DNA from: an uncultured Gemmatimonadota bacterium
GTDB taxonomy: Bacteria; Gemmatimonadota; Gemmatimonadetes; Gemmatimonadales; Gemmatimonadaceae
Direction of reading: 5' to 3'
DNA: 48,770 bases
NCBI GenBank assembly: GCA_903882745.1
Contig: CAIRYG010000009.1
Coordinates: forward strand, 1 to 48,770
Shown here: positions 6,351 to 48,377 of the stretch, piece by piece
How the letters are laid out: each line of letters begins with the position of its first letter
Position numbering within the stretch: the stretch's first letter is position 1
The notes under the pieces: generated by a model
The model's database searches: none
What the model saw: the letters and a program-made list of their open reading frames with translations, nothing else
Told to the model about the DNA's origin: nothing
Position numbers and translations under genes: made by a program

Positions 6351-6351
6351 G

Positions 6352-13686: not shown

Positions 13687-13698
13687 AGTCGTCTCCTC

Positions 13699-13824
13699 TT
13701 ACTTTCGGGCTTCGAGCAGCATGAACAGCCCGAGCGACGGAGCGAACGCCCCAAGCAAATCACGGAAGAGGCTGCGCGCCGCGTTGTTCCAGCAACCGAC
13801 AACTTGCTGCTTCAAATCCTTCAT
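13699..13824 (-). pseudogene. 41-codon frame, probable internally deleted methyltransferase relic
   Basis: A small frame with ATG at 13824, a GGAG site 8 bases upstream, and a stop 12 bases before asnB copy 1. Its beginning (MKDLKQQVVGCWNNAA) looks like the start of class I SAM methyltransferases found in glycan loci (about MxLKxQVxxFWNxxAC). Its end (LGLFMLLEARK) looks like their usual last strand (LGWFMLVEARK). Everything between, including the SAM-binding motif, is missing, as if about 200 codons were lost in frame. It may still be translated. The alternative is a genuine small hydrophobic-tailed protein. Confidence 0.45.
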
Positions 13825-13855
13825 GATTCGGCTCCGGTGTCGCGCATGCGGGCGG

Positions 13856-16872: not shown

Positions 16873-16973
16873 GGTTCAGTTCCTCGGGTGAGATAGATCG
16901 CGCCGCGCACCATCGGGCCAGCGCAACGAAATATAGCATGCCGACATTCAGCCCGGACGCTGCTGACGTACCC

Positions 16974-21350: not shown

Positions 21351-21370
21351 CGGTCGCCGGTTAGCGCCGG

Positions 21371-22213: not shown

Positions 22214-22255
22214 CTTGCCCTCATCTCGTTCTAGGGAATATTGCGTGCCTAAGTG

Positions 22256-24819: not shown

Positions 24820-24823
24820 TCCT

Positions 24824-25735: not shown

Positions 25736-25772
25736 GGTTACACTCCTCTTATGCTGGCAATTGACGGACATG

Positions 25773-31441: not shown

Positions 31442-31463
31442 GGTCGCAGGATTGTGATCAGGA

Positions 31464-32669
31464 CTAGGAGACTCGCTGACATACGACCACGGAGTTCGCG
31501 CCTCGCGGGTCGCCGGGAATGACGATTCGGCCAGCCTTGATACCAAGGACTTCGATCACGCTTCCGTACCGTTCGCACAGTGCCAGGAGCTGTTCAAGGC
31601 TGTACTCGTGAACGTGAAACGGGGTCACCGGTATGTCGCCCGTGCTGTTCTGTGGGGTGCTGAGCATGAGGCGCCCGCCCGGCTTGAGCACGCGCATCAG
31701 CTCGCGAAAGAATGCGTCGCCGTCCACGTGTTCCAGCGTTTCGAAGGACGTGACCATGTCGAACGTGTTGTCGGGCATGTCGAGGGCAGTCACATCGCCC
31801 ACCTCGCAGGTCACGTTCGGAAAATCGACATTCTTCGTGCGCGCAATCTCGATCTTGGCCTCGTCGATGTCGGCGCCCACGACACGGGCGACGCGACCCG
31901 CAAGGTATGTCAGGCCAAATCCATCACCGCAGGCGATATCGAGCAAAACATCCGTCGGCTTCACCCGCTGCGACGCGAGCTCGTAATGAAACGAGAGTTG
32001 ATCGCCGGTCCAGATGCGTGATGGCGTTATCTCGATCTGGTCGACATGGTACATGCGCTTCGAAAACGCGCGATCAGCCTCGAATCGGCTGGGCGGGTAG
32101 GGCTTCGGCTGGTGATACGCCGTGCGGAAGAGCTCCTTCCTGCTGGCAAAGAAGAATTTTGGATGGATGCGAAACGGAAGGAGCTCACCTACCAGCGCGG
32201 ACGCTGCCTTCCGCAGCGCCCCAATCCGATAGACCTCGCATTGGTAGGTCGACGGGAAATCATCGGGGAACTTTACGCAATCGAGGTCGTCAACGCGCGC
32301 CTGCTCGAGCATGGCACGGCCGGCATCCACGTCGCAGCAAAAATGAGGGCCGTCGAACCGCAGCAAGTGCGCCTCGTCGGGAAGGTGGGACGCCGCTGCC
32401 AGCAGTCGGTCGAGCGGACTGTCGTCAAATGCATACACCGCCCTGCCGGGGCGACCGCCGAGCGCGCGCCGGAGCACCGCGTCCATCTCCCCGCCGGCGT
32501 CAAAGGCCGGCGCCACGAGACACAGGTCGGCGTCAGGAAACGCGTCCGCGACGCGCCGAAGCGTTACCGCGATGACGGGTTCACCCTCCACGACGCTCAT
32601 CCCAACGTCTGCCCCACCACCCCAGGCTCGACTGCTCCCTTGTACCACCACCAATTGTCGGTTTGTCAT
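31464..32669 (-). CDS. fusion: degenerate nucleotidyltransferase domain plus SAM methyltransferase
   Basis: A 401-residue protein of two parts. Residues about 1-170 have the outline of an SpsF-like cytidylyltransferase: an opening strand RQLVVVQGSSRAW, LRRVADAFPDADLCLVAP, HLLRFDGPHFCCDVDAGRAM in place of 'R.tgD.P..d', and STYQCEVYRIGALRKA. The nucleotide-binding signature (RxxSxRLPGK) is not there, so catalysis is doubtful. Residues about 215-400 are a class I methyltransferase: VLLDIACGDGFGLTYLAGRV, VTSFETLEHVDGD and LKPGGRLMLSTPQN. The N-terminal part may now only bind a CMP-sugar and present it to the methyltransferase. ATG 32669 is 11 bases after the previous stop. Confidence 0.75.
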   Translation of the reverse strand: MTNRQLVVVQGSSRAWGGGADVGMSVVEGEPVIAVTLRRVADAFPDADLCLVAPAFDAGGEMDAVLRRALGGRPGRAVYAFDDSPLDRLLAAASHLPDEAHLLRFDGPHFCCDVDAGRAMLEQARVDDLDCVKFPDDFPSTYQCEVYRIGALRKAASALVGELLPFRIHPKFFFASRKELFRTAYHQPKPYPPSRFEADRAFSKRMYHVDQIEITPSRIWTGDQLSFHYELASQRVKPTDVLLDIACGDGFGLTYLAGRVARVVGADIDEAKIEIARTKNVDFPNVTCEVGDVTALDMPDNTFDMVTSFETLEHVDGDAFFRELMRVLKPGGRLMLSTPQNSTGDIPVTPFHVHEYSLEQLLALCERYGSVIEVLGIKAGRIVIPGDPRGANSVVVCQRVS

Positions 32670-32680
32670 TCGTTACCGCG

Positions 32681-33631
32681 TCATGTGATCGGACCCTGGA
32701 GCTGCCCGCTCGGTTTGCACCCATAAATGCAGGCATCCCGCCCAAGGCCCATGTCGGCGAGTCGCCGGTACAGGTCCCGTTTCAATCCAGTCTTGCCGCC
32801 CTTTGCCAGCTCGATCTCGAATCGCTTGCGCTGGGCGTGGACGGCCCGCCCCAAATGGTCGTTCCCGACATAGTTCTCGCCCATCAACAGGAACATGTCG
32901 ATTGGGAACGTCGCTTCCTTCAGGATGACCTCAAATCCGCAACGCTGCTGCAGCGCGGCAAGCGTCTCGAAGGTGAAGTAGTTGATATGATGCGGGGGGC
33001 CCACCCACCAGGGCGCATATCCCATCGACTCGCGCAGCACGTGCTGAAACGGATTGTAGTCGTTCGGGACCTCGACGTAGATCAAGCCACCCGGATTCAA
33101 CAAGTCAAATGCGAGGCGCAACAACGCCGCAGGATCCGGAATGTGCTCAAGAACCTCGCTCATGTGGATGACGTCGAACGTTCCGAGGCGAGGCGCACTG
33201 GCGGGCGAGAGGAAATCCTCGACGATCTCGAGCCCAAGGCCCCTTGCGTGGGCCGCCGCTTTCGCCGACGGCTCGATACCGAGCGTCGTCCATCCCCGAT
33301 CCTTCCCGTGTTTCAGAAAAATGCCGGGACCGGACCCCACATCGAGGATTCTCCGACGTTCCGGCGGAAGCGCGCCCTCAAAGACATCGAAGCGGCCGGA
33401 AAACACAATGTTCCACCACTCGAGATCGTCCCGGGCACGTTCGAGATAGAGCGGCTTGTCAGTGGTGTAGTACTCATGACGATACACCTGATCCAGCTCT
33501 TCCGGCGTCGGGATCGGGGTGATGTGCTTGAATCCACACGACACGCACTCGATGACGTCGAAACCATTGACGGAATCCAGCACGACACCAGTGTGGCCGA
33601 TTTCAGTTGTCTCGGATGCTGCCAAGTGCAT
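32681..33631 (-). CDS. class I SAM-dependent methyltransferase
   Basis: A 316-residue protein with a short N-terminal module (DVIECVSCGFKHITPIPTPE, one CxxC) typical of methyltransferases in sugar loci. The SAM fold follows: RRILDVGSGPGIFLKHGKDR (motif I), TLGIEPS, FDVIHMSEVLEHIPDPA and LLNPGGLIYVEVPND. Target unknown. ATG 33631 has GGAGA immediately upstream; TTG 33646 is an alternative adding five residues. The 160 bases before it, back to the disrupted C-methyltransferase, hold no gene but do hold a hairpin. Confidence 0.85.
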   Translation of the reverse strand: MHLAASETTEIGHTGVVLDSVNGFDVIECVSCGFKHITPIPTPEELDQVYRHEYYTTDKPLYLERARDDLEWWNIVFSGRFDVFEGALPPERRRILDVGSGPGIFLKHGKDRGWTTLGIEPSAKAAAHARGLGLEIVEDFLSPASAPRLGTFDVIHMSEVLEHIPDPAALLRLAFDLLNPGGLIYVEVPNDYNPFQHVLRESMGYAPWWVGPPHHINYFTFETLAALQQRCGFEVILKEATFPIDMFLLMGENYVGNDHLGRAVHAQRKRFEIELAKGGKTGLKRDLYRRLADMGLGRDACIYGCKPSGQLQGPIT

Positions 33632-33773
33632 TCTCCAGGGATTCAAACGGTCGTGGGTTGCAGAGCTGCGTCACACCCTGCGCGGAGGGATGTGCACGGC
33701 CAAGCCGCAGGACGCTCGCGGCGCCAGGCGGGCGACAAAAGATCGCGGGCCCGCGGGCCTATGGTATTCCATC

Positions 33774-33795
33774 CCGAACGACGCTTGTCGTTCGG
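33774..33795 (-). terminator. hairpin in mid-operon gap, possible terminator or attenuator
   Basis: CCGAACGAC and its exact complement flank a GCTT loop: 9 base pairs, 14 bases past the stop of the disrupted C-methyltransferase gene. No T tract follows on the transcribed strand, so it is not a clear intrinsic terminator. It is the most obvious structured element in the largest gap (about 175 bases) of the central operon, and may mark an old cassette border or protect an mRNA end. Confidence 0.35.
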
Positions 33796-33808
33796 CGTTG
33801 TGCGAAGT

Positions 33809-35032
33809 CTAATGAATCGACACGTGGTCGTACAGTAGGACTGTGCGGGCCGGCGGCGCACCATGGGAAATCGCCCGCCCCGCGATTTCGTCCTGCCCTC
33901 CGTAGGACGAAACAACCAGTTTCGCCGTCGCCCAGTCGATTTCCGGCAACCTGCTGGGAGGGATGATTGAAATCCCGCGCCACGATCGGCCCTGCTTCAT
34001 GGGATCGCTGTCGACGATCACGAATTCGCGCTCCGGGACACGGAAAAGCTCTGTGAGGTGATACAGAAATTCGGTGTGCAGACCGCCGCCCCAGATCACC
34101 ACTCGGCCAGTTAACATCGCCTCATCGAGGCGTGCCGAGACCGCGGCGACAGCGGACTTCCAGTGAGCGAGATATCGAGCGAGGGAGACCTCATCCTCCT
34201 GGGCGCCAAACACGCCATCAGTCGCCGGACCGGCAACGGCCAGGACCCGGCAGCCATTGTAATCCGCCTGTTCGAACCGCTCCTCAATCACCCAGCCAGC
34301 CCGGTTCAGGCTGTTCGCGAGGCTTTGACGACTGAAATGCGTCATGTGGAGGGCCGAGAAAAATCCGTTGACATCATTCGTCATCCCGTTCTCGAGAATG
34401 GGGACCTCGACCACGAGGTGGGTTCCCGCACGCGACACCGCCCTCAGGTTCCTGAGCGTGGCCACCGGGTCGGGGAGGTGCTCGAGAACATGAAACATCG
34501 TGATGACGTCCGGGATCCAGGACATCTCAAATCGATTGAAATCTCCAAAAATAAATTCAATACCGCTCTTGCCATGCGTCTCGATGCCGCGGGTGATTGC
34601 CGTCTGGTCGATGTCGACACCTATCCGCCGCACAGACTCAGGCACATGAGAGAGGAAATCACCGTCGTAACAGCCGACGTCCAGCAGACAGCTTCCGGGA
34701 GCGACCAGTTTTCAATCTTCGAGCCAGCCCAGCGTTTCCATGGAACGTCCCGCGCTGGCGCCGTAGGAGCATCCCGCTTCGGCAGCCAGCACCCGAAACC
34801 CGTCATCGGTCAGCACAGGATTCCTGTACACCGCATGACAGGCGTCACATACCACGTCGCGGATGTGTATTCGCTTCGATAACCTGGCGTCGTCCGTGAA
34901 GTACTGAAAACCGGGGAACGACACCGCCTCGCGCGATGCTGGGCGCGAGCACACGGGGCACGCCCGCATGACGGTCGCCTTAGGGTCCGAGCTATTCCAC
35001 CGGAAACTGTCGACTGCCTTCCATTCAATCAC
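33809..35032 (-). pseudogene. C-methyltransferase-like gene interrupted by an in-frame TGA
   Basis: One frame encodes a complete methyltransferase apart from a TGA at 34712-34714. Before it come a zinc-ribbon-like part (RACPVCSRPA, VVCDACHAVYRNP) and ETLGWLED. Straight after the stop comes KLVAPGSCLLDVGCYDGDFL, the SAM motif I, then MFHVLEHLPDPVA and a C-terminal nucleotide-like domain (VVIWGGGLHTEFL) as in TylC3/NovU-type C-methyltransferases. Removing the stop gives about 407 residues from GTG 35032, or 386 from ATG 34969. A CGA to TGA change is the simplest cause. Restart at ATG 34645 would make a protein without SAM motif I. Most likely inactive. Confidence 0.8.
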
Positions 35033-36089
35033 TTGCACGCTCCAATCGTTGGGTAATCGTACGTGCGACGCATTCCGCACCGAGTCCGTCGAGGATGGCG
35101 ACGGCCTGACGGCGCATCGCGCGCCGACGTCCCTCGTCCGACAACAGCGAGCGGATTGCTCCGGCGATTTCTGCATCCCTGACGTGCGCGTGCACGCCAA
35201 GGCTAATGCCGACGCCAGCCTTCTGCAGGGCGCCCGCGGACGCCGCATGATCGTCCGTCAATGAGAGCGTGATTGCCGGCACGCCAAGAACCGCCAACTC
35301 GTACGCGGTGCTGCCGAAGGCTGCGACGGCCACCTGCGACCGGGCCATCAGTTCGCCCATGTTTTGAATGTCGCGCTCGACACGATACGTTCGGCGCGCC
35401 ACCGCGAGAAACGCGTAAAGCGCGTCCGCATTCACATGGGCGGGGCCGACCACCACAGTCGTATCGAAATCTTCAGCCAACGTGTCGATAACCGTCAGCA
35501 CGCGAAGCGTGAGCCCGGCCGGGTCGCTGCCGCCCATCGTAACCAGCACCGACGCGCGCGGCGGCTCACGGCCTGGCGAATCACCACGATTGGCCAGGAG
35601 ATCACTTCGTAGGATGATCCATTCCCAGCCGACATGGAGTTCGCCCATAAAGCCGGACCAATCCATCGACAGGACTTGTGGAACAGGCGGATAGAACGCG
35701 AGATCCGCGACGAGACGCCGTTCGGTTGGATCATCAATTGTCGCAATCAGCACACCGTCTCCCTTCCACCGGCGAAGGGCGTCCACCGGAAGCTCATCAC
35801 GAACGTCGAGCACCAACGCCGCCGCCTGCTCGTGGAGAATGGCGTGCTCCAGCCACTCGCCATTGGCGACCGGTGGAAGCTCCGCGTGGCCGAGGTGGAC
35901 ATCGTATCCCCGCGCCTCAACCGCCGGCGCGGCAGATGCCTCCGTCATCGCAAACACGACGCGAATATCATGATCTGACCTGAGCGCGTCGGCGAGCGCG
36001 AGGCAACGCACCAGGTGACCGTAGCCGATCGACGGAGAAGCATCACACCGTACGACGACCGTCCTCGTCTGAGCTATAAGGCCGGCCAT
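35025..36089 (-). CDS. pseG: PseG-like UDP-2,4-diacetamido-2,4,6-trideoxy-altropyranose hydrolase
   Basis: Releases the hexose from UDP in the pseudaminic-type pathway. A 354-residue GT-B-fold protein with the catalytic His in DASPSIGYGHLVRCLALADAL (about residue 25), VLVTMGGSDPAGLTLRVL, SQVAVAAFGSTAYELAVLGVP and LADDH-like ITLSLTDDHAASA. It lies next to pseB, pseC, the synthase and the cytidylyltransferase. ATG 36089 overlaps the aldo/keto reductase end by 16 bases. The true substrate acyl groups could differ, because no PseH acetyltransferase is seen. Confidence 0.88.
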   Translation of the reverse strand: MAGLIAQTRTVVVRCDASPSIGYGHLVRCLALADALRSDHDIRVVFAMTEASAAPAVEARGYDVHLGHAELPPVANGEWLEHAILHEQAAALVLDVRDELPVDALRRWKGDGVLIATIDDPTERRLVADLAFYPPVPQVLSMDWSGFMGELHVGWEWIILRSDLLANRGDSPGREPPRASVLVTMGGSDPAGLTLRVLTVIDTLAEDFDTTVVVGPAHVNADALYAFLAVARRTYRVERDIQNMGELMARSQVAVAAFGSTAYELAVLGVPAITLSLTDDHAASAGALQKAGVGISLGVHAHVRDAEIAGAIRSLLSDEGRRRAMRRQAVAILDGLGAECVARTITQRLERASD

Positions 36090-37018
36090 CGGCGCGGATC
36101 GATCAGGGTTTCGTCACCCAACGCGAGCCCTGCCGCAGCGGCGAACTCGGATGTGGGAAGTGGACCGGCCGCCACGGCATCGAGCGCCTGATCGAGTTCG
36201 CTCCGGGTGCTGGCCCCCGTCAGCACGCTTGCGACTCGCTCCTCTGAGAGGCAATACCGCAACGCGGTTTCCGGTAGCTGCCGCCACGAGGCGCCAAGCG
36301 TCCGGCGAGCCCGATCGGCACCGTCGCGAAGCCCGTGGAGTGCGGGAGGCAGCCACTGCGAACGCTCGGTGAGCGCGCCCTTGAGAAATGCCGACCGGGT
36401 CAGCACGCCGACATCCGCCCGTATTGCCGCCGCAAAGACCTGCGGGCGCATCCGTTGATCGAGGACACTGAAAGCGACCTGCAACACATCGATCCAGCCG
36501 CTGGCAATCGCGGCCATTGCCTCGTCAGCCGTGTACACCGAGGCCCCGAGAAACCGGATTGCTCCCTTCGCCCGATTCTCAGTTAACACATCGACCACTG
36601 GCGTCGTCGCGAGTATTTCCGGGGTCGCATTGTGAATCTGGACGATATCCAGTGTCTCGCGGCGCAACATGCGACGACTGGCTGCCAAGGAATCTTCCAA
36701 TGCTGCGCGGAGCCCGGAACTCGTCATTCCCGACCGATCCTCGGCCGGGGGGACAGTCACCTTGGTCGCAATCACGCAATCGGTTCGATCACCGAGCGCG
36801 AGCCCGGCCAGCCGTTCGGCGTCGCCGTAGGCGGGCGCCGTGTCGAACAACGTTACGCCCTGGTCAGCCGCGTACCGCAGGAGGGCAATCGCGTCTGTTT
36901 CCTGCGGACGTCCGGCGCCGGCGGAACCGGCGATACCATAGCTAGTTCCAAGTGCGACCGTTCCCAGGGCCAAGCCCGAGACCTGCAGGTCGGTCCGCCC
37001 AAACCGCCGATAGATCAT
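36074..37018 (-). CDS. aldo/keto reductase
   Basis: A 314-residue NADPH-type reductase with the usual catalytic set: Asp in GVTLFDTAPAYGDAERLAG with the following Tyr, Lys in CVIATKV, and His in LDIVQIHNATPE. The C-terminal SVLTGASTRSELDQALDAV is the nucleotide-phosphate region. It starts with YRRFGRTDLQVSGLALGT, normal for the family. Reductases like this appear beside class III aminotransferases in nonulosonic-acid loci, and the two may together modify the side chain. That pairing is remembered context, not proof. Confidence 0.9.
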   Translation of the reverse strand: MIYRRFGRTDLQVSGLALGTVALGTSYGIAGSAGAGRPQETDAIALLRYAADQGVTLFDTAPAYGDAERLAGLALGDRTDCVIATKVTVPPAEDRSGMTSSGLRAALEDSLAASRRMLRRETLDIVQIHNATPEILATTPVVDVLTENRAKGAIRFLGASVYTADEAMAAIASGWIDVLQVAFSVLDQRMRPQVFAAAIRADVGVLTRSAFLKGALTERSQWLPPALHGLRDGADRARRTLGASWRQLPETALRYCLSEERVASVLTGASTRSELDQALDAVAAGPLPTSEFAAAAGLALGDETLIDPRRWPAL

Positions 37019-37036
37019 CGGCGTCGCGACTGGGCC

Positions 37037-38341
37037 TTACTCACGCGTCAGGCGCGCGAACCCCGTGTGCGCCGCGGGACTCGACAACAGCGTGGCCGGA
37101 TCCCGCGTCGCCAGCTCACCAAATACTTCGGTGACGGCCGTGCCATAGCGCTTCACGTCGTCTAATGTGTGCGCGTACGCCGGCTTGAACTGCCGGAATC
37201 CCAGAAATCCATGGCGCAACATTTCCAGCACGTAGAATGTCTGCATTGCCTGGTTATGCTTTGAATCGAAGGCGAAGGCCGCGAGGGTGGGCAGTCCCGA
37301 CACCTTGATCGGCACGCCGGTGGCTCGCGATGCTTCGTTCCAGACCTTCTTGACCTGGTCGCCGATGGCAATGATATGATCCTGCACATTGTTCGCCCGA
37401 TACTTCCGGATCGTCGCAAGCGCCGCGGTGGGGCCGACGCGCTCCGTCCAGTTGGTGCTCGAAATGAAGCTGCCTTGCGCCGCCTCCATCACCCGCTCGC
37501 GGCCGATGATCGCGGCCATGGCGTAGCCATTAGCCATCGACTTCGCGAATACCGCGATATCGGGGTTCACGCCATATCGAAGGTGAATGCCGCCAGCATT
37601 CATTCGGAACGCGGACGTGATCTCGTCGAAAATTAGGACGGCGCCAATCTCCGCCGCATAGGCCGCAAGCTGTTTGAGGTAGTCGACCGGTGCCTCTTCG
37701 CCCCGGGCCGGCTCGATCACGATAGCCGCCACTTCCTTCTCTCGGCCACTCACCAGTGAGCGGAGCGCCGCGATGTCGTTGACCGGAAACCCGATGGCCG
37801 AACCGCGCAGGCCGCGCGGGACGCCGGTCGGCTGGAGCCCCGGCATGAGGTGGCCATCGAGCGCGTCTGTTTCGCCGAGGTTTGCCGCGAGGTACCAGTC
37901 GGTCCAGCCGTGATATCCGCTAAAGAGCACCAGATCCCTGTGTGTGGACGCGCGCGCAATGCGCACCGCCACCGACATCGCCTCACCGCCGCTTCTGGTG
38001 TACCGAACCATCTCGGCCCATGGGTGCAGTTCTATCAGCAACTCGGCGAGTTCCACCTCTTCGGGGCAGTTCAGCGAGGACGCCACGCCATTGCGGATCG
38101 CGCCGATGACGGCGTTGTCCACGTCGTCGTCCGCGTAGCCGAGGATGCAGGCACCGATTCCCATGATGCTCATGTCGGTGTAGGCGGTCGTGCCCTCGAG
38201 ATCCCAGACTTTGACGCCCTTCGCCTTGCTGTAGTACGAAGGCCACCGGTCGGGGGCGAACATCTCCGGACGCTTCGACAGCAACTGGGTCCCGCCGGGA
38301 ATGACTTGCCGGCCTCGTTTGTAGAGTTCCTCGCCCTTCAC
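37037..38341 (-). CDS. class III PLP aminotransferase, glutamate-1-semialdehyde aminomutase-like
   Basis: A 434-residue PLP enzyme beginning GRQVIPGGTQLLSKRPEMF. It has RYTRSGGEAMSVAVRIARA, LFSGYHGWTDWYL, VLIFDEITSAFRM (the Asp that pairs with the PLP nitrogen) and IAVFAKSMANGYAMAAIIG with the Schiff-base Lys. Sequence type is GSA aminomutase, but its place between the CMP-sugar synthetase and the aldo/keto reductase argues for an amino-sugar or side-chain role instead of haem synthesis. GTG 38341 overlaps the preceding stop (GTGA). Confidence 0.88.
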   Translation of the reverse strand: MKGEELYKRGRQVIPGGTQLLSKRPEMFAPDRWPSYYSKAKGVKVWDLEGTTAYTDMSIMGIGACILGYADDDVDNAVIGAIRNGVASSLNCPEEVELAELLIELHPWAEMVRYTRSGGEAMSVAVRIARASTHRDLVLFSGYHGWTDWYLAANLGETDALDGHLMPGLQPTGVPRGLRGSAIGFPVNDIAALRSLVSGREKEVAAIVIEPARGEEAPVDYLKQLAAYAAEIGAVLIFDEITSAFRMNAGGIHLRYGVNPDIAVFAKSMANGYAMAAIIGRERVMEAAQGSFISSTNWTERVGPTAALATIRKYRANNVQDHIIAIGDQVKKVWNEASRATGVPIKVSGLPTLAAFAFDSKHNQAMQTFYVLEMLRHGFLGFRQFKPAYAHTLDDVKRYGTAVTEVFGELATRDPATLLSSPAAHTGFARLTRE

Positions 38342-39153
38342 GATCGCTCCTCCGGTTTTTCCGGGTTGGGCGGGCTGAGTGATTCAACCTGCCAGAGTTC
38401 CTTGTAACCTTCCTTTCCAATGGCCGACTGATTGAGCTCGGTCAGGTCCGGATGTTTCGCCAGGTATTGCAGCACGTCGTGCATGCCGAACATCCGCTTC
38501 TCATCATACAGCGCGTCGTAGATCTGCTCTGCAAACTGAAAGTCGGCCGCGTTGTCGACCGTCCAGCGCAATGTGGAATAGTCCGCGTCGGGCCTCAGCC
38601 CGGCGAGTCGGAATCGACCGGCCTCGCGCCAGATAAAAGGCGTCACATGCTCGCGATCGGACGGTGCGGTTGCCTCGCGCCAGGCCCGCTCCACTGCTGC
38701 AAACGAGAAACACTCCGCATCGAGCCCATCGGGAAAGCGACCCTGTCTCTCGAACGCGGCGCCCGCTCCCGTCGCCACACCCACGTGGTCGAAGTTCCCG
38801 GTGGCGTACATCGCCAGCACCTGCTCAATCACGCCGGGGTCCACCATGGGGCAGTCGGCTGTGATGCGCACGATCGGGTCCGCGTGGTGACGAACGGCCG
38901 CCTGGTAGAACCGGTCGAGCACATCGTTTTCGCTGCCGCTGAAACAGGCGATGCCTGCGCCGGCGCAAAACGTGCGAACTGGTTCATCGCGCTCTTCGGT
39001 GGTCGTCGCCACCACAACTTCGCTGATCGATGGCGTGGCCCGCACGCGGGTGACAACGTGCCAGAGCATCGGGTGCCCGCGCAGGGGCATGAGGATCTTT
39101 CCGGGGAGCCGCGTGGACCCGATGCGTGCCTGAATGATCGCGACCGGGCGCAT
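38338..39153 (-). CDS. SpsF/PseF-type cytidylyltransferase (CMP-nonulosonate synthetase candidate)
   Basis: A 271-residue nucleotidyltransferase with the signature AIIQARIGSTRLPGKILMPL at residues 5-24, EVVVATTTEERDEPV, VLDRFYQAAVRHHADPIVRI and ITADCPMVDPGVI (the metal-binding Asp). It should activate the nonulosonic acid with CTP. By type it is closer to SpsF than to the classical PseF/NeuA. ATG 39153 is one base past the synthase stop. The N-terminal half of the fusion protein at 31464-32669 resembles this enzyme in outline but lacks the signature. Confidence 0.87.
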   Translation of the reverse strand: MRPVAIIQARIGSTRLPGKILMPLRGHPMLWHVVTRVRATPSISEVVVATTTEERDEPVRTFCAGAGIACFSGSENDVLDRFYQAAVRHHADPIVRITADCPMVDPGVIEQVLAMYATGNFDHVGVATGAGAAFERQGRFPDGLDAECFSFAAVERAWREATAPSDREHVTPFIWREAGRFRLAGLRPDADYSTLRWTVDNAADFQFAEQIYDALYDEKRMFGMHDVLQYLAKHPDLTELNQSAIGKEGYKELWQVESLSPPNPEKPEERS

Positions 39154-39154
39154 G

Positions 39155-40012
39155 TCAGGCTCCCAGTTGACCGCGCTTCGACCGAATCGGTCGCAGGCCG
39201 TCCGCCGGGTCGGCGCGCCACTCGCGATCGGGCAGTTCACTCGGTGCCGGCACCTTGACTCCCGTCCCGTCGGCCTGGAAGGCCAGCCGGACGTCGCTGA
39301 TGACTGCCGCCATGGGATCCGGCATCCAGCAGTGGCCGGTCTTGAACTCGTCGCCCTGACCGTCCAGATCCAGATGAAATTCGACGAAGCTCGCATTCCA
39401 TCGATGAACCGCCCGGTAGATGACGTCCGGACGAACACTGTGATCGGACCAGCCGACCGCGCAGCCAAACCGGCTTCGGAGCGTCTCGATCGCCGCGAGG
39501 TTGCACTCATCGACCGGCGTCGGATAGCCCGAGACGCAATGGAGCAACGTCAGGTCGCTGCATCCTGCCTTTCGGGCGACGTCTACGGCATGACCGATTT
39601 CTTCCATAGTCGCCATGCCAGTCGATACGACGAGTGGTTTCCCCGTTTGCGCGCAGCGGACAAGCAGATCGTCCCACATCATTTCGTACGACGCGACCTT
39701 ATAGAAGGCAACGAACGGGACCAGTTGCGCCACCGCATCGAGATAAAACGGCGTGCAGGAGAACTCGATCTTCCGTTCAGCGCATCGCTCGGAAAGCGGT
39801 TTCAGGAACTCGACCGGAAGCTCCCAGGCTTCGCGGGCCCTCAGGTGCGGGTGGTGAGTCAGCGCTTCGGGAGAGAAGAGCTCGCGCACCCTAAACAGCT
39901 GGAACTTCACCGCATCGCAGCCGATGTCGGCGGCCCGGTCGACGAACGCGAGCGCGCGGGGCAGGTCCCGGCTGTGGTTGCTGGAAACTTCGGCGACGAA
40001 CTTGGGTGTCAT
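39155..40012 (-). CDS. pseI: NeuB/PseI-type nonulosonic acid synthase, short form without SAF domain
   Basis: Condenses a six-carbon sugar with phosphoenolpyruvate to a nine-carbon acid. 285 residues: FVAEVSSNHSRDL (the AEIxxNH-like motif), DAVKFQLF, FSCTPFYLDAV, VASYEMMWDDLL, VVSTGMATMEEI, LLHCVSGYPTP and VGWSDHSV, all conserved barrel motifs. Usual NeuB/PseI proteins have about 345 residues and a C-terminal antifreeze-like (SAF) domain; this one ends after EWRADPADGLRP. ATG 40012 is 14 bases past the pseC stop. Pse, Leg or Neu specificity cannot be read, so the symbol follows the neighbouring pseB/pseC/pseG. Confidence 0.82.
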   Translation of the reverse strand: MTPKFVAEVSSNHSRDLPRALAFVDRAADIGCDAVKFQLFRVRELFSPEALTHHPHLRAREAWELPVEFLKPLSERCAERKIEFSCTPFYLDAVAQLVPFVAFYKVASYEMMWDDLLVRCAQTGKPLVVSTGMATMEEIGHAVDVARKAGCSDLTLLHCVSGYPTPVDECNLAAIETLRSRFGCAVGWSDHSVRPDVIYRAVHRWNASFVEFHLDLDGQGDEFKTGHCWMPDPMAAVISDVRLAFQADGTGVKVPAPSELPDREWRADPADGLRPIRSKRGQLGA

Positions 40013-40026
40013 GGTCTCGTCGCGAC

Positions 40027-41193
40027 TCAGGCAGCGCCGGCGGTACGAGGACTCGGCGCGTGTTTCCGCACGGCGTCGATCACCTTGTCGAACTGTTCGT
40101 CGGTCATGCCGTGCCACATTGGGAGCGACAGCAACCCATCGTACGCCGCCTCGGCCACAGGACAGAGTCCGCGGGCGTAGCCAAGCCCCTGGTAGTAGGA
40201 GTGCAGGTAGACCGGCAGGTAGTGCACGTTGACCCCGATTCCATCGGCGCGAAGCGCCGAATACATCGCCTGCCGTGCCGCTGCGACGTCGTCGGCCACT
40301 ACGCGAACCGGATACAGATGCCATGCGTGCCGGCGATCGTCCGGCTCGATCGGCACACGGATGCCAGGCACCGCGTCGAGTTCGGCGCGATAGCGCGCGG
40401 CGAGCGCGCGGCGTCGCGCGAGCCAGGTGGGAAGCTTCTTCAGCTGCGAGAGCCCAAGGGCGCAAAGCAAGTCGGGTAGCCGATAGTTGAACCCGAGCTC
40501 GAGCATGTCGTAGCTCCACGTGCCGGCGAGTTCGCGCTGGCGGTGATCGCTACTGATGCCATGGTTGCGCAACAGTCGAACCCGTCCGGCCAGTTCGGCG
40601 TTGGCTGACGTCACCATGCCGCCCTCACCTGTCGTCATGTGCTTGACGGGGTGAAAGCTGAACACCGACAGATGGGCAATGGACCCGACGCGGCGCTCAT
40701 GGTACTCAGCGCCTGGTGCATGACACGCATCTTCAACGAGAATCAGACCATGCGTGTTGCACAAATCAAGCAGCGGCGCGAGGTCGGCGGGCAGACCGGC
40801 GTAGTCGACGGCAACGATCGCCTTCGTCCTCGCGGTGATGAGCGACGCCACGTGGGCAGGATCGACCGTCAGCGTATCGTCGCGCACGTCGGCGAACACC
40901 ACCGTGCCACCAGCATATCGCACACTGTTGGCGCTAGCGGCGAAGGTCAGCGCGGGGACGATCACCTCGTCACCCGGCTTGATGCCAATGGCGAGCATCG
41001 CCAAATGCAATGCGGCCGTTCCGTTGCTCACCGCCACTGCATGCGGCGCTCCAACGTACTGGGCGAACCCCTCTTCGAATCGCGCGACGGCTGGTCCGGT
41101 CGTGAGCCAATCGCCACGCAGCACTTCGGTGACTGCGGCTAGGTCGTCGGCATCGATCACATGCCGACCATAGGGAATGAGTGCCTCAGACAT
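40027..41193 (-). CDS. pseC: PseC-like UDP-4-amino-4,6-dideoxy-altrosamine transaminase
   Basis: A 388-residue DegT-family PLP aminotransferase: IPYGRHVIDADDLAAVTEVL at the start, AVSNGTAALHLAMLAI, LVEDACHAPGAEYHERRVG, and FSFHPVKHMTTGEGGMV with the PLP Lys. It aminates C4 of the keto sugar made by PseB. ATG 41193 is preceded by GGAG 6 bases upstream and overlaps the pseB stop by 8 bases; an ATG at 41208 is less well placed. Together with pseB it defines the entry of the nonulosonic-acid branch. Confidence 0.9.
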   Translation of the reverse strand: MSEALIPYGRHVIDADDLAAVTEVLRGDWLTTGPAVARFEEGFAQYVGAPHAVAVSNGTAALHLAMLAIGIKPGDEVIVPALTFAASANSVRYAGGTVVFADVRDDTLTVDPAHVASLITARTKAIVAVDYAGLPADLAPLLDLCNTHGLILVEDACHAPGAEYHERRVGSIAHLSVFSFHPVKHMTTGEGGMVTSANAELAGRVRLLRNHGISSDHRQRELAGTWSYDMLELGFNYRLPDLLCALGLSQLKKLPTWLARRRALAARYRAELDAVPGIRVPIEPDDRRHAWHLYPVRVVADDVAAARQAMYSALRADGIGVNVHYLPVYLHSYYQGLGYARGLCPVAEAAYDGLLSLPMWHGMTDEQFDKVIDAVRKHAPSPRTAGAA

Positions 41194-42208
41194 TAATCTC
41201 CGTCGCAATCAGGTGTTTCAGTTCTTCGACGGTGAGAAAGCGCTCGTTGGTCCCGCTGTTGTAGCTAAATCCGTACTCCAGCAACTTCCCGGGAAGCCTG
41301 TGGCTTTCGCGCCGAAAGCGGTCGACGTCCCACAAGGCCATGGAGGGCAGGATGACGAAGTAGTTGTCGAACTCAATCGTGCCCATTGCGTCGGTCGTGG
41401 TAATCATCTCCTCGTGCAGTTTCTCCCCTGGTCGAATACCCACCGTCTCGAGCCGGGAATCCGGCGCAATGGCCGTCGCCACATCGAGAATGCGGTAGGA
41501 CGGGATTCGTGGCACAAAGAGCTCGCCGCCCCACATTCGGCCGAGACAGGTGAGAACAAAATCGACGCCTTCCTGCAGGGTGATGTTGAACCGTGTCATA
41601 CGCGGGTCGGTGATGGGCAGGACGCCGAGCCCGCGCCGTTCGAGAAAGAAGGGAATCACCGAGCCGCGGCTCCCCATCACGTTCCCGTAGCGGACCGCCG
41701 CGAACCGCACGTCGCGTTCGCCTTTGTGATTGTTCGCCGCGACGAACAACTTGTCCGACGCGAGCTTTGTGGCGCCGTACAGGTTTATGGGCGCCGCCGC
41801 CTTGTCGGTGCTGAGCGCGACCACATGCGTGACACCCGTGGCCATCGCGCCGTTGATGACGTTTTCCGCGCCGAGGATGTTCGTCTTGACCGCCTCGAAC
41901 GGATTGTACTCGGCGGCGGTCACCTGCTTGAGCGCGGCCGCGTGAATGACGATGTCTATCCCTTCCATCGCCTTGCGCAGGCGCGCCGCGTCCCGCACGT
42001 CGCCGATGAAGAAACGCATGACGTCCTGGCGACTGCGGAATGGCTCCGCATTCTGCATGTCGAACTGCTTCAGCTCGTCGCGGCTGTAAATGGCGATCCG
42101 TTTGAGCGAATACCGGCTGAGTACGGTCCGGACGAACCGTTGACCGAATGAGCCGGTGCCGCCCGTGATGAGGACACTCTTTCCATCAAGCGAAAACGAA
42201 GAATTCAT
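41186..42208 (-). CDS. pseB: PseB-like UDP-GlcNAc 4,6-dehydratase (5-inverting)
   Basis: A 340-residue soluble SDR dehydratase of the PseB type, not the large membrane PglF/CapD type. Motifs are VLITGGTGSFGQRFVRTVL (NAD loop), IAIYSRDELKQFDMQ (typical of PseB), LSTDKAAAPINLYGATKLAS with the Asp-Lys/Tyr-x-x-x-Lys catalytic set, and RYGNVMGSRGSVIPFF. It converts UDP-GlcNAc to the 4-keto-6-deoxy-altro sugar. ATG 42208 overlaps by four bases (ATGA) the stop of a 29-codon relic frame that lies between it and fkbM. Confidence 0.93.
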   Translation of the reverse strand: MNSSFSLDGKSVLITGGTGSFGQRFVRTVLSRYSLKRIAIYSRDELKQFDMQNAEPFRSRQDVMRFFIGDVRDAARLRKAMEGIDIVIHAAALKQVTAAEYNPFEAVKTNILGAENVINGAMATGVTHVVALSTDKAAAPINLYGATKLASDKLFVAANNHKGERDVRFAAVRYGNVMGSRGSVIPFFLERRGLGVLPITDPRMTRFNITLQEGVDFVLTCLGRMWGGELFVPRIPSYRILDVATAIAPDSRLETVGIRPGEKLHEEMITTTDAMGTIEFDNYFVILPSMALWDVDRFRRESHRLPGKLLEYGFSYNSGTNERFLTVEELKHLIATEINV

Positions 42209-42294
42209 AATTGGCGGGCGATGGGATGGAACCCATGTTCGGCGGGCGCATGTCGCCCGACGTACCGTCGAAAAATATCAGAGTGACTGAGCAT
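42205..42294 (-). pseudogene. 29-codon relic of an ABC transporter C-terminus between fkbM and pseB
   Basis: The frame from ATG 42294 reads MLSHSDIFRRYVGRHAPAEH and then GFHPIARQL. It matches the last residues of the intact ABC transporter of this operon ([20 protein letters not shown], then ESDTFAR); the DNA at 42228-42290 also resembles about 43300-43360. It is what remains of the 3' end of a second, related ABC gene. Its start overlaps the fkbM stop (TGATG) and its stop overlaps the pseB start (ATGA), so it may still carry ribosomes from one gene to the next. Confidence 0.75.
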
Positions 42295-43256
42295 CACGGC
42301 GGAAATGTCGTCGCGACTTTGGAAATAAGTCTCATACCCAGCCGTTTGATATTCGTGCGCGAAAAAACAAGCTTTTTCCGGCGGAGCCTTTCGATATCCC
42401 GGAGCGCTGTTTCCACTTCGGCCTGAAACAGCTTAGAAAACACTCCGGCCCCATGAAAAACACGGCTCAGCTGAATGGCATATCCCGTGTACCTGAACAG
42501 ATCCGCACACGCGATCGCAATCAGGGCCATCCGTGCGGATACGGGCGGGCCCGAGGAAAAGTCACGGAAAAAGAGCGATTCAGAGCCAACGACCTGGCTT
42601 TCATCATACATGAACTCCTGGCCGTCGACCGCGCGTTTCCAGGACATAACGTGACTCATATTGAAAAGATGGAATCCCTGACGATTGAGGTACGCTTCAA
42701 CTTCCCCGTGCAGGTGCTGCCCCTTGTGAATGGGGGAGTGCCAGCTCTCCACCATGACCCCCACGCAGTCGCTTAGGGATTTCTCCGCTCCTCTCAATGC
42801 TTCGTACTCAGCAGAGTGGATGTCCAGTTTGATGAAGTCCGGCGTGCCGCAGAGGTTGGCTTCGACCGCGGAATCGACCGATGTGCACGAAACACGCAGC
42901 ACCTTTTCCGTTCGCCGAACAGGAAATCCTATATAGTCCGGAAAACACTTGAGCAAGCGCTCGTTTGGCGGATACACGGACGATGTTGACGGGTCGTGCG
43001 CCAGATGCACGTCGACCTGCCCCGCCGAATCCCAGAGCGCGCTGTTGACAAACTGAACCGTTCCCTTCGAGATGTCATACTGCGCCTCATTCGGGTCGGG
43101 ATCAAATGCAAGAATGTCTATCCCTTGCCGAATGGCGGAGAACGGCTCAAAGAGGCTCCCCCTGGACCCGCCATCCAGCACCAGGACGTTGGGTTTGTCA
43201 AGGTTGGACCTGAAGTGGCCTGAATCGAAATAGAGGGGAAGAAAGGGTCGGTACAT
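42294..43256 (-). CDS. FkbM-family methyltransferase
   Basis: A 320-residue SAM methyltransferase of the FkbM type. NVLVLDGGSRGSLFEPFSA is the SAM loop, ILAFDPDPNEA the acidic strand end, VSCTSVDSAVEANLCGTPDF a typical FkbM connector, and FIKLDIHSAEYEALRGAEKS the hallmark 'KxDxxGxExxxLxGA' segment. It probably O-methylates a sugar hydroxyl. The C-terminal about 80 residues (from SARMALIAIACADLFRY) are an extension beyond the usual domain. G+C looks lower than in neighbours by eye. The start lies 17 bases past the ABC transporter stop. Confidence 0.85.
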   Translation of the reverse strand: MYRPFLPLYFDSGHFRSNLDKPNVLVLDGGSRGSLFEPFSAIRQGIDILAFDPDPNEAQYDISKGTVQFVNSALWDSAGQVDVHLAHDPSTSSVYPPNERLLKCFPDYIGFPVRRTEKVLRVSCTSVDSAVEANLCGTPDFIKLDIHSAEYEALRGAEKSLSDCVGVMVESWHSPIHKGQHLHGEVEAYLNRQGFHLFNMSHVMSWKRAVDGQEFMYDESQVVGSESLFFRDFSSGPPVSARMALIAIACADLFRYTGYAIQLSRVFHGAGVFSKLFQAEVETALRDIERLRRKKLVFSRTNIKRLGMRLISKVATTFPP

Positions 43257-43273
43257 GGCGAATGTAGCTCCGA

Positions 43274-45133
43274 CTAACGGGCGAAGGTATCGGACTCGTG
43301 TCCGGAGGGCGTATGACGTCCGACGAACCGTCGAAAGGAATCGGATGTGCCGAGCAGTTCGTCATACGAGCCCACCGCGAGTACGCGCCCCTGGTCCAGC
43401 ATGACAATCTGGTCGCACAGTTCAATCGAGCGAAGCCGGTGGGCAATGAGGATCACGGTTCGCTCGCCAACGAGCGATCCGATGGCTTCGATGACGGCGT
43501 CCTCCGTCAACCCATCCAGCGCACTGGTCGCCTCGTCGAACACCAACACGTCTGGCTCGTGGTATAGTGCGCGGGCGATTCCGAGTCGTTGCCGTTGTCC
43601 GCCCGACAGTCGAACGCCCCGTTCGCCGACCACCGTGTTGTACCCGTTCGGCATCGCGAGAATAAATTCTTCCGCCTGGGCCAAGCGAGCCGCGCGGCGG
43701 ACCGCCGTCTGGTCGATCGCATCGGCCGGCAGGCCAAAGGCAATATTTTCGGCCACCGTCGCATTCGACAGAAACACGCCTTGCGGCACATAGCCCACGC
43801 TCCGCTGCCACGCGCGAACGGAATCCCCGACCAACGGAATACCATCAACCGTCACGGTACCGCTGGTCGGTGGGTAGAGGCCGAGTATGACGTCGACCAG
43901 CGTGGTTTTACCGGCTCCGGTTCGCCCGATCAGCCCGATACTTTGGTTACAACGGATATCCAAAGTCACGTTGCTCAACGAGGGCGTTTCCGTAGCTTCG
44001 TGCGTGAACGATACATTCTCCAGCCGCAGCACCTGTTTGAGGTGCAGTGTGGGGAGCGGTCCGGCTGTCGGAGCAGTTTCACCGGCGGCGGATCTTACGC
44101 GCATGAGGTCGTCGTGCAGGCTCCGGAGCGCTGGCAGCGTGAAGCGGATGCTCACGGCCGCCCCGAAGACCTGCTGCAACGCCGGCAACAGTCGATAGCC
44201 GGCGAACGCATACAGAGCGAGGAGGGGGACGATACTCTGAGCGCCCTCCGCTTTGCTCGCCGTTAGCACTAGGCTCGCGATCACGATTCCGCCGAAGGCC
44301 ACGGTCTCGAGCACAAATCCGGGAATCCGGGCGACGAGCGTATGCACCACCCCCGCATGTGCCACCAGCCCTGCCGCGCTCGTGAAACCGCGAACCGACT
44401 CGGCTTCCCGGCCAAGGACCTGAAGTTCCTTGATCCCGCCAAGACCCTCTTGGGCGATTCGCGCGCGCACTTCAGTGCCACGATGCGCGCTCGCGGCCAA
44501 CTTGACCTGCGCCGCACGCGTTCGCCGAAAGGTTCCCAAATACGAAATCAGCAGAACACCCGCCACAATGATCACGACCCTGGGATCCCGCAGCACGAGC
44601 AGGAGCAGGATTCCGGTCGCCATGAGCAGCTTGGATACCCCGACAAACGACGGCACAATAATGCCGTTGATGACCAGGTTGACGTCGGAGTTCAAGACCT
44701 TGAGCAGGGAGGGCGCGTCGCGCCGGATGTGAAAAGCGTATGGCTGCCGCAGGTATCCGGCAAAAAGCGTTGACGAGAACCGAACATCGGTGCGCGCTCT
44801 GAATCGCTGCTGCACATAGATGTCGGTGGCCGCAGCGAAATTGCCGCAGGCCACAATGAGCGCGGTTGCCACCCCAATGAAAAGGAGACCTCCCGCCTGC
44901 GTGGTGACGCCGGCGAACACCATGGCCCGCTGCAGCACCGCCGACCGCTGCAAACCAGTTGGATCGAGCACGAGCGCCATGAACGGCAGGATCGACGCGA
45001 CGCCCGCCGTTTCAAAAATGGCGGCCACAAAACTCACCGAAAAGACAACGACCAGTAGCAGGCGTTCACGGCCCGGGAACAGATTCGCGATGATGCGTGG
45101 CAGCGATGGCTTGACCCCTGCTACATCCGTCAT
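43274..45133 (-). CDS. PglK-like ABC transporter, lipid-linked oligosaccharide flippase
   Basis: A 619-residue half transporter. The N-terminal membrane domain has about six hydrophobic segments (for example [51 protein letters not shown]). The ATPase domain has Walker [20 protein letters not shown], signature [20 protein letters not shown], Walker [16 protein letters not shown] and the switch His in ILIAHRLRS. PglK-type proteins flip undecaprenyl-linked glycans across the inner membrane. No Wzx flippase is seen, so this is probably the exporter for the whole repeat unit. ATG 45133 overlaps the epimerase stop (ATGA). Confidence 0.88.
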
Positions 45134-46173
45134 CCACCGGTGCCCACGGGCTGCGCGGCATCGGCAACTTGATAAAAATCCCGATACCACTCCACGAACC
45201 GTCTTACGCCGACCTCAATCGTCGTGGATGGACGATACCCGACCGCCTTGTCGAGCGCGTCGGCGTTCGCCCACGTCGCGGGCACATCACCCGGCTGCAT
45301 TGGCAATAGCTGGCGCTCGGCCTTCCGGCCGAGGCACGTCTCCAGCACTTCTATATAGTCTGTTAACTGCGTGGGTCGGCTGTTGCCAATATTGAAGATG
45401 CGCCAGGGAGCGTCACTGGTCGATGGATCCGGATCGTCGCTTTTCCATTCCGGGTTCCCGGTGGGCGGTCGATCGGCGGCGCGAATCACACCTTCCACGA
45501 TGTCATCGACGAAGGTGAAGTCCCGCATCATGTTGCCGCCGTTGAACACCGAAATCGGCTTGCCTTCCAGAATCGCCTTGGCGAAAAGAAAGAGGGCCAT
45601 GTCCGGACGGCCCCATGGCCCATATACCGTGAAGAACCGCAAGCCTGTGGTCGGTATTCGGAACAAATGGCTGTACGAGTGGGCCATGAGCTCATTCGCC
45701 TTCTTCGTCGCGGCGTAGAGCGTCAGCGGATGGTTCGCACTCTCGTTCTCCGCGAACGGCATATGGGTATTCGCGCCGTAGACACTGCTCGTGGAGGCAT
45801 ACACCAAGTGCCGCACGGTGGTGTGGCGGCATCCTTCGAGCACATGCAGAAAGCCGGTGACGTTTGCGCTCGTGTATGAATGTGGGTTCGTGAGCGAGTA
45901 GCGCACGCCCGCCTGGGCAGCCAGATGGATCACGACCTCGGGCCGGGTCTCCGCGAAGAGATTCTCCATCGCGGCGCGGTCCGACAGGTCGATCTTGTGA
46001 AACGAAAACCCAGCCGAAGCCTGCAGTATCGACAGCCGGGCATGTTTCAGCCGAATATCGTAGTACTCGTTCAGGTTATCCAGACCAATAACTTCATCGC
46101 CGCGATCAAGAAGACGTCTGGCCGTATGAAACCCGATGAAACCGGCAGCGCCTGTAACGAGAAAACGCGACAT
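45130..46173 (-). CDS. UDP-glucuronate 4-epimerase (NAD-dependent epimerase family)
   Basis: A 347-residue SDR epimerase: [39 protein letters not shown] (typical of UDP-glucuronate 4-epimerases), [35 protein letters not shown], and the catalytic Tyr/Lys in [12 protein letters not shown]. It makes UDP-galacturonate from UDP-glucuronate and so provides an acidic sugar that the two asparagine-synthase-type enzymes could amidate. ATG 46173 overlaps the Wzz-like stop by one base (TGATG). No UDP-glucose dehydrogenase is in the window. Confidence 0.9.
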
Positions 46174-47318
46174 CAACTGCTCCCGGTCCCGGGCGATCGG
46201 CCCAGCACAAAACGTCGAATGCCGGCGGTCGCGTCACCAAACGCCTCGAAAAATGCCAAAGTGTCGGGGTCCCCTTCGGCCCGCCGATGCCTGATGCCGT
46301 CACCCAGAAAAATTATCAGCACGCCAAACAGGGCGCCGAGGAACATCCCAAGCAGGCCGCGCTTCGTCCAGCCGCGGGAGTTCGCTTCCGTCGGCATGGA
46401 CGGGTCTTCGATGATCGTAATTACCGGAGTATCCCGCACCTCGCGCATGCGAGCTTCCTCAAACGATTGCTCGAGTGCGTTCACCACGGTCAACTGCAGC
46501 TGGACCTGGCGCTGAAGGCGCGTGTGTTCCACGCTGAGTTCCGCTGAACTCTCAAACGAGCGGTTCCGCTGGACGAAGGCAAGCAACCGGTCTTCCGCCG
46601 CGTTCAATGAGGCCGACGCCTGCTTCAATCGATCTTCAGTGAAACGCCGCTCTTCACTCGCCTGATGCTGACGTGTGTGAAGGTTGAAGTCGTTCAGTCG
46701 CGTCAGAACGCGCTGCAAAATGTCCTGGGAGAGACTCGGCCAATCGGTCGTAGTCGAGATCGTCATGATCCCTGTCTTGTCCGAAATGTTCACGCCGACA
46801 AGGCGATTGAGCGCCGTCACCCCCTTTGCCGTTCGACTTGCTGGAGTGTCGCCCTTGATGTCGAGGACGTCCAGCAGCGTCTGGGGCTTTCTGCCGGACT
46901 CGGCGATCGCGAATGTATCGGCGAGCACCGGTGCCAGGATCGCACTCGAACTGAGCAACTGCGCGTAAAACTGCGGCGATTGACCCGGCGTTGCGTTGCC
47001 CAGTTGAATACCGAATCGGCCGGCGATGCCGGCGATCCCCGAATTCGCCGCATTTTGACCTCCCTCCGAGACGAAGGAGGCGGTCGACGTATAGGACGTT
47101 TTCTGAAAAAGAACGGGGAGAATGGCAAGCGCTCCGCCAATCACAATCCACCGAAAAACCTGCCAGCGGTTCCGAAGCAACATGCTTCCAAGCGCAAACA
47201 AGGATAGAAAACCGTCGCCAGAGTTCTCGCCGTCTGACTGGCGGAGCTCTGGCTCGCTTGTCGCCGGATTCGTCAACTCACCCCTTTTCACGATTAACCC
47301 CTTAACGGCATCGAACAT
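46173..47318 (-). CDS. Wzz-like chain-length/co-polymerase protein
   Basis: A protein of about 381 residues with one N-terminal membrane segment ([20 protein letters not shown]), a long, partly coiled-coil periplasmic part ([20 protein letters not shown] to [13 protein letters not shown]), and a second membrane segment ([20 protein letters not shown]), then a short cytoplasmic tail. No tyrosine-kinase domain follows. This layout is that of Wzz/PCP proteins that set polymer length with Wzy. The start is uncertain: ATG 47318 overlaps the nusG-like end by 17 bases, but TTG 47276 has a better AGGGGTGAG site. Confidence 0.82.
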
Positions 47319-47898
47319 CCACCAGCAGATTCCTATATCCTGATCTTTCACATTCGTCGTTCGGCTCGGCCGCTTTGACCAGTGCCGACCCAATGGTGAA
47401 CGCGACACCTCGCCCAATCTCGGCCACCCAAATCACCAACTGGCGCCCGCTCCTCCGCTCGCGAACAATCCCGCGAACCCCGCGGAGTGCACCTTCCTGC
47501 ACGATCACTTCGTCACCCGATCTGTAGTCGACACTTTCAGTCAGCGCTTCTAGCTCGACGCCCTCGTGTCCGACCACATCACGCAGAGTGGTAACAAAAC
47601 GGTCTGTTAGAAGCGCCGGCTTCCCGCCCTCTGTGATCACAGTCAGAACCCCGGGAGTCCGAAGAATCCGATGCCAGTCGGCAATGGCAGCCCTGGCGAA
47701 CAGATAGCCCGGAAAAAGCGGACACTCAACGATCCGCCAGCGATCACTCCAGCGATGACGTTCCTTCACAATGGGAAGCCAAGGGGACAGGCCGAGCGCT
47801 GCGAGCCGCTTCTCTACCTTTTTCTCGGCGCGCGATTCCGCCCACACTACGAACCATTGGCCGGAGTCTGTTTCTGGAATTTCAGCCCGCTGAATCAT
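47302..47898 (-). CDS. NusG/RfaH-type transcription antiterminator
   Basis: A 198-residue specialised NusG paralogue. The N-terminal NGN domain has QWFVVWAESRAEKKVEKRLA, PWLPIVKERHRWSDR, VECPLFPGYLFAR and ILRTPGVLTVI; the C-terminal KOW domain has SGDEVIVQEGALRGVRGIV. It should bind RNA polymerase near the start of this operon and suppress polarity and Rho termination over the following 45 kb. ATG 47898 is the first good start; the sequence upstream of it in frame is not NusG-like. Its ops-like recognition element was not identified. Confidence 0.9.
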   Translation of the reverse strand: MIQRAEIPETDSGQWFVVWAESRAEKKVEKRLAALGLSPWLPIVKERHRWSDRWRIVECPLFPGYLFARAAIADWHRILRTPGVLTVITEGGKPALLTDRFVTTLRDVVGHEGVELEALTESVDYRSGDEVIVQEGALRGVRGIVRERRSGRQLVIWVAEIGRGVAFTIGSALVKAAEPNDECERSGYRNLLVDVRCR

Positions 47899-47919
47899 GG
47901 GTACCAAAGTGCATGGTGA

Positions 47920-47934
47920 GTCACAAAACGTGAC
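47920..47934 (-). promoter_or_regulatory. small hairpin in the leader between the regulator and nusG-like genes
   Basis: GTCAC and GTGAC flank an AAAAC loop, 22 bases before the nusG-like ATG, in a 77-base gap. A short hairpin exposed just before the antiterminator gene could be a pause or recruitment element, as hairpin-presented ops elements are for RfaH, but five base pairs can occur by chance. No exact ops sequence is seen. Confidence 0.25.
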
Positions 47935-47975
47935 GAACCGGATGGCGCAGAACGACGGAATCAACAACCTACTTT

Positions 47976-48308
47976 CTAGCTTCCCTCGGCCGCACCCTCA
48001 CTCTCTCCCCTCAATATCTCAATCTCGAGACGGAGGGCGTCGAACTCCTCGATCTTTCGTGCCAAAAACCGTCGAGTGAGCTCAGCCTTGGCTGCGACTC
48101 CCTCCGGGGTAAGGAGATAGGCGTAGCCACGTTTATTTGAGCTGTTCCGGAAGTTTTTGACCTTTATGAACCCCTTGTCGAGCAACGAATTTAGCAGATA
48201 ATTCGCTTTGCCCAAGCTCATTCCAAGTTCCCGCGCCATCTCACGTTGCGTGCGGCTGGGGCTCGCACTGAGAAGACGAAGTATACCAAACAGCAAGGAA
48301 TCTGTCAT
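47976..48308 (-). CDS. MarR-type EPS-associated winged-helix regulator
   Basis: A 110-residue DNA-binding protein of the small MarR/EPS-associated group that heads exopolysaccharide operons. The helix-turn-helix is LSASPSRTQREMARELGMSL and GKANYLLNSLLDKGFI; the wing is KNFRNSSNKRGYAYLLTPEG. A C-terminal helix (AELTRRFLARKIEEFDALRL) with leucine spacing probably makes the dimer. It is the first gene of the operon and its own promoter carries a perfect palindrome over the -10 box, so autoregulation is likely. No strong ribosome site is seen before ATG 48308. Confidence 0.88.
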   Translation of the reverse strand: MTDSLLFGILRLLSASPSRTQREMARELGMSLGKANYLLNSLLDKGFIKVKNFRNSSNKRGYAYLLTPEGVAAKAELTRRFLARKIEEFDALRLEIEILRGESEGAAEGS

Positions 48309-48334: not shown

Positions 48335-48353
48335 ATGTTCAACAGTTGAACAT
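48335..48353. promoter_or_regulatory. 19-bp perfect palindrome, probable operator
   Basis: ATGTTCAACAGTTGAACAT reads the same on both strands around a central base. It overlaps the -10 element (48349-48354) and the expected transcription start of the minus-strand promoter. That is where a dimeric MarR-type repressor would block RNA polymerase. The regulator encoded 27 bases downstream is the natural ligand. Confidence 0.75.
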
Positions 48354-48377
48354 ACAACTTATAATCAAACCTGTCAA
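48349..48377 (-). promoter_or_regulatory. sigma-70-type promoter of the polysaccharide operon
   Basis: On the minus strand a perfect TTGACA (48377-48372) is followed after exactly 17 bases by TATGTT (48354-48349), four of six matches to TATAAT. The spacer is A+T rich in an otherwise G+C-rich region. Transcription would start near 48342, giving a leader of about 34 bases before the regulator gene. Confidence 0.75.

Follow-up and report, generated by a model that had tools for sequence, protein, structure and literature searches.

The question raised by this locus was whether the perfect palindrome located just upstream of a small regulator gene acts as an operator and, if so, for which protein and for which genes. 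The window, i.e., the whole analysed stretch of 48,770 nucleotides, contained this palindrome at 48335..48353, where two nine-base arms surrounded a single central base (ATGTTCAAC-A-GTTGAACAT, or ATGTTCAAC-T-GTTGAACAT when 48353-48335 was read on the minus strand); this palindrome is the predicted operator. An earlier note on this DNA had described a perfect 19-bp palindrome over the -10 box of a promoter with TTGACA and 17-bp spacing, and both elements were found again in our analysis. No other palindrome in the whole window had arms of at least 9 bases with a gap of 0-1. When the window was described by a first-order Markov model, 0.9 palindromes of such quality were predicted in it. Since about one was expected by chance, the perfection of the repeat proved nothing by itself, and therefore the case had to rest on comparison, namely on its position and conservation.

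With respect to position, the promoter was read on the minus strand from the -35 hexamer TTGACA (48372..48377) to the -10 hexamer TATGTT (48349..48354). This TTGACA-17-TATGTT arrangement (48377-48349) matched 10 of the 12 consensus positions and can be considered a near-consensus promoter; in the region 30000-48770 there was a single other 10/12 match, within the regulator gene (48308-48280). The -10 hexamer shared its final five bases with the palindrome, which also covered the expected transcription start and was separated from the regulator gene by 26 bp. In other words, a dyad overlapped the promoter of the adjacent regulator gene, as is typical for autoregulated switches of the MarR type.

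The regulator gene (47976..48308, minus strand) encoded a 110-aa protein that scored 134.6 bits with the TIGR04176 MarR_EPS model, compared to its curated cut-off of 88. It was also located in a polysaccharide (EPS) gene cluster, and in these respects it was a member of the TIGR04176 family without any difference from it; the operator is what the present analysis adds. The Pfam MarR_2 and MarR models matched barely above their cut-offs and HTH_24 matched more strongly. The closest solved chain by profile was LrpA (E 4e-6), and no close solved relative was found by the structure and profile searches: Foldseek with the regulator model gave no match at E <0.001, and the structure searches returned generic winged helices alone. 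In the AlphaFold2 monomer model (mean pLDDT 81.7), helices at 2-15, 21-28, 32-44, and 68-109 formed a winged helix followed by a single long C-terminal helix of 42 residues, although the wing was poorly predicted (pLDDT <50 at 51-53 and 58-62). The length of the C-terminal helix in this model suggests a coiled-coil dimer. The classical MarR fold dimerizes via N- and C-terminal helices around the winged helix and has a ligand pocket. In contrast, the regulator described here was only about 110 aa long, had the single long C-terminal helix, and lacked an evident ligand pocket in its monomer model.

Conservation was assessed at two levels, starting with the phylum. Among 395 genomes of the phylum, 14 carried a MarR_EPS gene with a TIGR04176 score above the cut-off, and in all 14 of them the GTTCA-N5-TGAAC sequence was located ahead of this gene. 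In the window, this conserved core of the predicted operator corresponded to 48337..48351. The promoter geometry was alike in most of the carriers, where the final bases of the -10 box (TATGTT, TACGTT, or GATGTT), which followed TTGACA or TTGACT, belonged to the site; the TTGACA hexamer preceded the site in nine carriers as well. The phylum also contained 16 TIGR04176 matches below the cut-off, and the site was found only with the best-scoring one (L016). The L016 protein was a larger winged-helix protein with a Rossmann-like C-terminal part, and its operator was located about 149 bp ahead of the winged-helix match, behind TTGACA-18-TAGAAT; a search for relatives of this larger protein returned L016 itself alone. 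Another of the 16 weaker matches, L019, looked like a truncated true member of the family.

The second level was a set of 80 relative loci that were gathered from bacterial and archaeal genomes by protein patterns only; it included several of the 14 phylum carriers, that is, the two sets partly overlapped. All 48 members of alignment A2 matched TIGR04176, and two scans of viral contigs revealed no relative. The loci were titled Gemmatimonadota and Pseudomonadota, and single ones had been assigned to Chloroflexota, Acidobacteriota, and other phyla. The latter came from metagenome bins and may be mis-binned, since some of their proteins hardly differed from those of proteobacteria (L037 with L043, L046 with L039). 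At least 250 bp of upstream sequence was available for 79 of the 80 loci, which were considered testable. The exact GTTCA-N5-TGAAC site was present in 60 of them and the N4 version with the same GTTCA half-sites in another 7 (L048, L052, L055, L062, L072, L085, and L096), which gave 67 of 79 in total; spacings of 0-3 and 6-10 yielded no exact site among the 79 loci. The counts did not change with a 300-bp upstream limit, and base composition predicted 0.015 loci. Random windows of the same loci contained 0.55 N5 sites on average. When only proteins with less than 70% identity to each other were considered (n=47), the exact N5 site was retained in 33 and the exact N4 site in 5. The sites were spread over the protein tree, where the spacing changed about four times, including at least two changes on well-supported branches.

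Thus, the operator was conserved together with the regulator, as expected from a MarR-type switch, in all of the phylum carriers and in most of the wider relatives; the earlier note had named relatives without the motif as the outcome that would speak against its proposal, and the proposal clearly withstood this check. The number of chance palindromes expected in the window spoke for a functionless repeat, and we rejected this reading because of the conservation in 67 of 79 relatives, where less than one was expected by chance. Its remaining probability was practically negligible. The exact proximal site was missing in 12 of the 79 loci. In seven of these, an exact site was located farther upstream, at a distance of up to 3.2 kb, although chance may account for some of them; L075, L082, L105, and L110 had no exact site within this distance. 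In L098, there was an imperfect N4 site.

The aligned sites also revealed which part of the palindrome was conserved. The G-T-T-C-A half-site was invariant among the aligned N5 sites; this invariance was partly due to selection, as sites were picked at 9 or more matches out of 10, yet 60 of the 61 picked sites were perfect. The flanking base was mostly C or T, and the N5 spacer was near random with a weak bias to A...T. The longer search string proposed in the earlier note (TGTTCAAC-N-GTTGAACA) did not hold up, with upstream matches in 0 of the 80 relatives. Accordingly, the conserved form of the predicted operator is yGTTCA-N5-TGAACr, or N4 in some lineages, and the full arms of the palindrome were not conserved. 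The same data addressed the idea that this perfect inverted repeat might fold into an RNA hairpin in the leader. The repeat overlapped the -10 box, which left about half of it upstream of the transcription start. Moreover, the conserved property was the GTTCA sequence rather than pairing, since spacer positions N1 and N5 were complementary in only 23 of 67 sites, and the distance from the site to the gene varied from about 12 to more than 200 bp across the loci. A leader hairpin was therefore highly improbable.

Because the core preceded the gene of the same regulator in many distant bacteria, it is very probable that the palindrome is where the MarR_EPS regulator encoded downstream binds DNA. 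However, GTTC/GAAC half-sites are also similar to some LexA boxes, which in some phyla resemble TGTTC-N4-GAACA, so the site could in principle belong to another, global regulator, such as a LexA-like SOS repressor, and precede the gene by coincidence. In this case, many sites would be expected in the genome, with several of them in front of SOS genes. Pattern searches, on which our statements about the own genome are based, found only two exact cores: the site itself and one within the coding region of the dnaG primase gene. A search with up to 3 mismatches returned the site alone, which was below the rough expectation and carried no weight for uniqueness. The spacing was different too, as the GTTC-to-GAAC distance was N7 here and N4 in a LexA-like box. 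Finally, the site tracked the MarR_EPS gene across distant bacteria. A pattern that was blind to the protein (TTGACA-N12-22-yGTTCA-N5-TGAACr) matched 11 of the 395 phylum genomes, 9 of them carriers, and its reversed control matched 0. The association with carriers was strong (Fisher p ~2e-13), and the site with this promoter geometry was rare in non-carriers (2 of 381). The two non-carrier matches, in L128 and L136, preceded genes for a TetR-type and a MerR/B12-type regulator and were probably due to chance. Thus, the LexA-like or global-regulator reading was largely refuted, and we consider it very unlikely.

Promoters around the sites were then scored with a sigma-70 matrix, with shuffled flanks as a control. 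The best promoter near a site had a mean score of 8.4, compared to 4.1 with the flanks shuffled. In the relatives of the window the -10 box overlapped the site, and in most proteobacterial loci it was located a few bases before the site, which would place the transcription start within the site. Since both placements would fit a block of RNA polymerase, they argue for a repressor site. Some MarR and other winged-helix proteins are known to activate transcription, and the MarR_EPS regulator might likewise activate or modulate transcription from this site instead of simply repressing it. On the other hand, the site covered the -10 box and the start, and a near-consensus promoter should need no activator; we consider activation unlikely, though less so than the alternatives discussed above. 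Two loci, L037 and L043, had a special arrangement with two tandem exact operators located about 280 and 247 bp upstream of the regulator match, 32 bp apart from start to start, and flanking a predicted -10 box.

Taken together, the conservation upstream of the gene and the predicted overlap with the promoter supported the operator and the autoregulatory logic that the earlier note had proposed. We consider it highly likely that the palindrome is a MarR_EPS operator through which the regulator would repress its own gene, the antiterminator gene, and, at a minimum, the proximal genes of the polysaccharide cluster. In the proposed mechanism, a regulator dimer, probably joined via the long C-terminal helix, would contact each GTTCA half-site with one of its two winged helices and cover the -10 box and the start site, blocking RNA polymerase. 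This block would keep all of these genes repressed. Once a signal relieves the repression, the near-consensus promoter would fire, and the UpxY/RfaH-type protein encoded by the second gene could help transcription through the long cluster. Such a switch is of a well-known kind. The classical MarR repressors, such as E. coli MarR, SlyA, and OhrR, have operators over their own promoters and autoregulate by steric block; the winged helix, the dyad over the -10 box and start, and the putative mode of autoregulation were similar here.

The second gene (47302..47967, minus strand, start codon uncertain) matched Pfam NusG and scored 97.4 bits with the UpxY model, just below its cut-off of 100; it was therefore of the same NusG-paralogue type as the UpxY, RfaH, and LoaP antiterminators of polysaccharide operons. 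The genes from 47967 to 1993 were located on the strand of the regulator and were read as a polysaccharide biosynthesis and export cluster (1993..47417, minus strand). It encoded Wzz-like, ABC exporter, and PseB/PseC/PseG-like proteins, glycosyltransferases, a bacterial sugar transferase, and UDP-GlcNAc 2-epimerase. There were ten intergenic gaps of 32-287 bp, and because of these gaps the single 46-kb operon of the earlier note can be considered no more than a plausible prediction.

Sites in the relatives were also found beyond the regulator's own gene. In four loci without a proximal site (L078, L079, L093, and L100), the operator was located in front of an upstream RfaH-like gene; on its other side, the operator of L079 and L093 was flanked by a divergent gene for a UDP-sugar dehydrogenase, and in L100 a ugd-like gene was preceded by another site. 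Additional sites were located ahead of genes for a UDP-sugar dehydrogenase (L055), a hexapeptide acyltransferase (L061), a phosphomannomutase-like protein (L084), and a second copy of the regulator (L072). UpxY-like genes were present in 28 of the 80 loci. The names of the genes at the extra sites were read by eye from translations, and the UpxY/RfaH-like ones were assigned by tblastn. Because sites also fronted RfaH-like, sugar-nucleotide, and second-regulator genes, the MarR_EPS regulator seems to control the polysaccharide cluster and not itself alone.

In Acidithiobacillus caldus, a gene of the MarR_EPS type changed its expression under salt (PMC10599003). No published operator for the MarR_EPS family was found in the literature searched, which covered few of the subscription papers. 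We know of no report in which UpxY, RfaH, or LoaP antiterminators were combined with a dyad operator dedicated to a MarR_EPS protein. What is added to the known mechanism is the predicted family-wide operator. We judged the chances about even for a wider and, to our knowledge, undescribed reading: one code of GTTCA half-sites with a 4- or 5-bp spacer and repeated switches between them would serve the whole MarR_EPS family across phyla and mark a portable module, in which the regulator gates itself and an RfaH/UpxY-type antiterminator, so that a single dyad decides on transcription of a polysaccharide cluster of tens of kb. With the operator, a family known mainly by its automatic name gains a predicted and testable DNA code, yGTTCA-N4/5-TGAACr, which can be used to predict the polysaccharide promoters under MarR_EPS control in many bacteria, including uncultured ones. 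A search by eye found no residue in the MarR_EPS proteins that strictly tracked the N4 or N5 spacing. As the N4 and N5 sites share their half-site, they can be considered a natural experiment on the adaptation of a small winged-helix dimer to a one-base shift.

One more observation concerned the cluster itself. At 20536-21288 (minus strand) of the window, fragments of a PMT_2-type glycosyltransferase were distributed over several frames with no single long ORF, a pattern that suggested either a frameshift in this gene or an error in the sequence.
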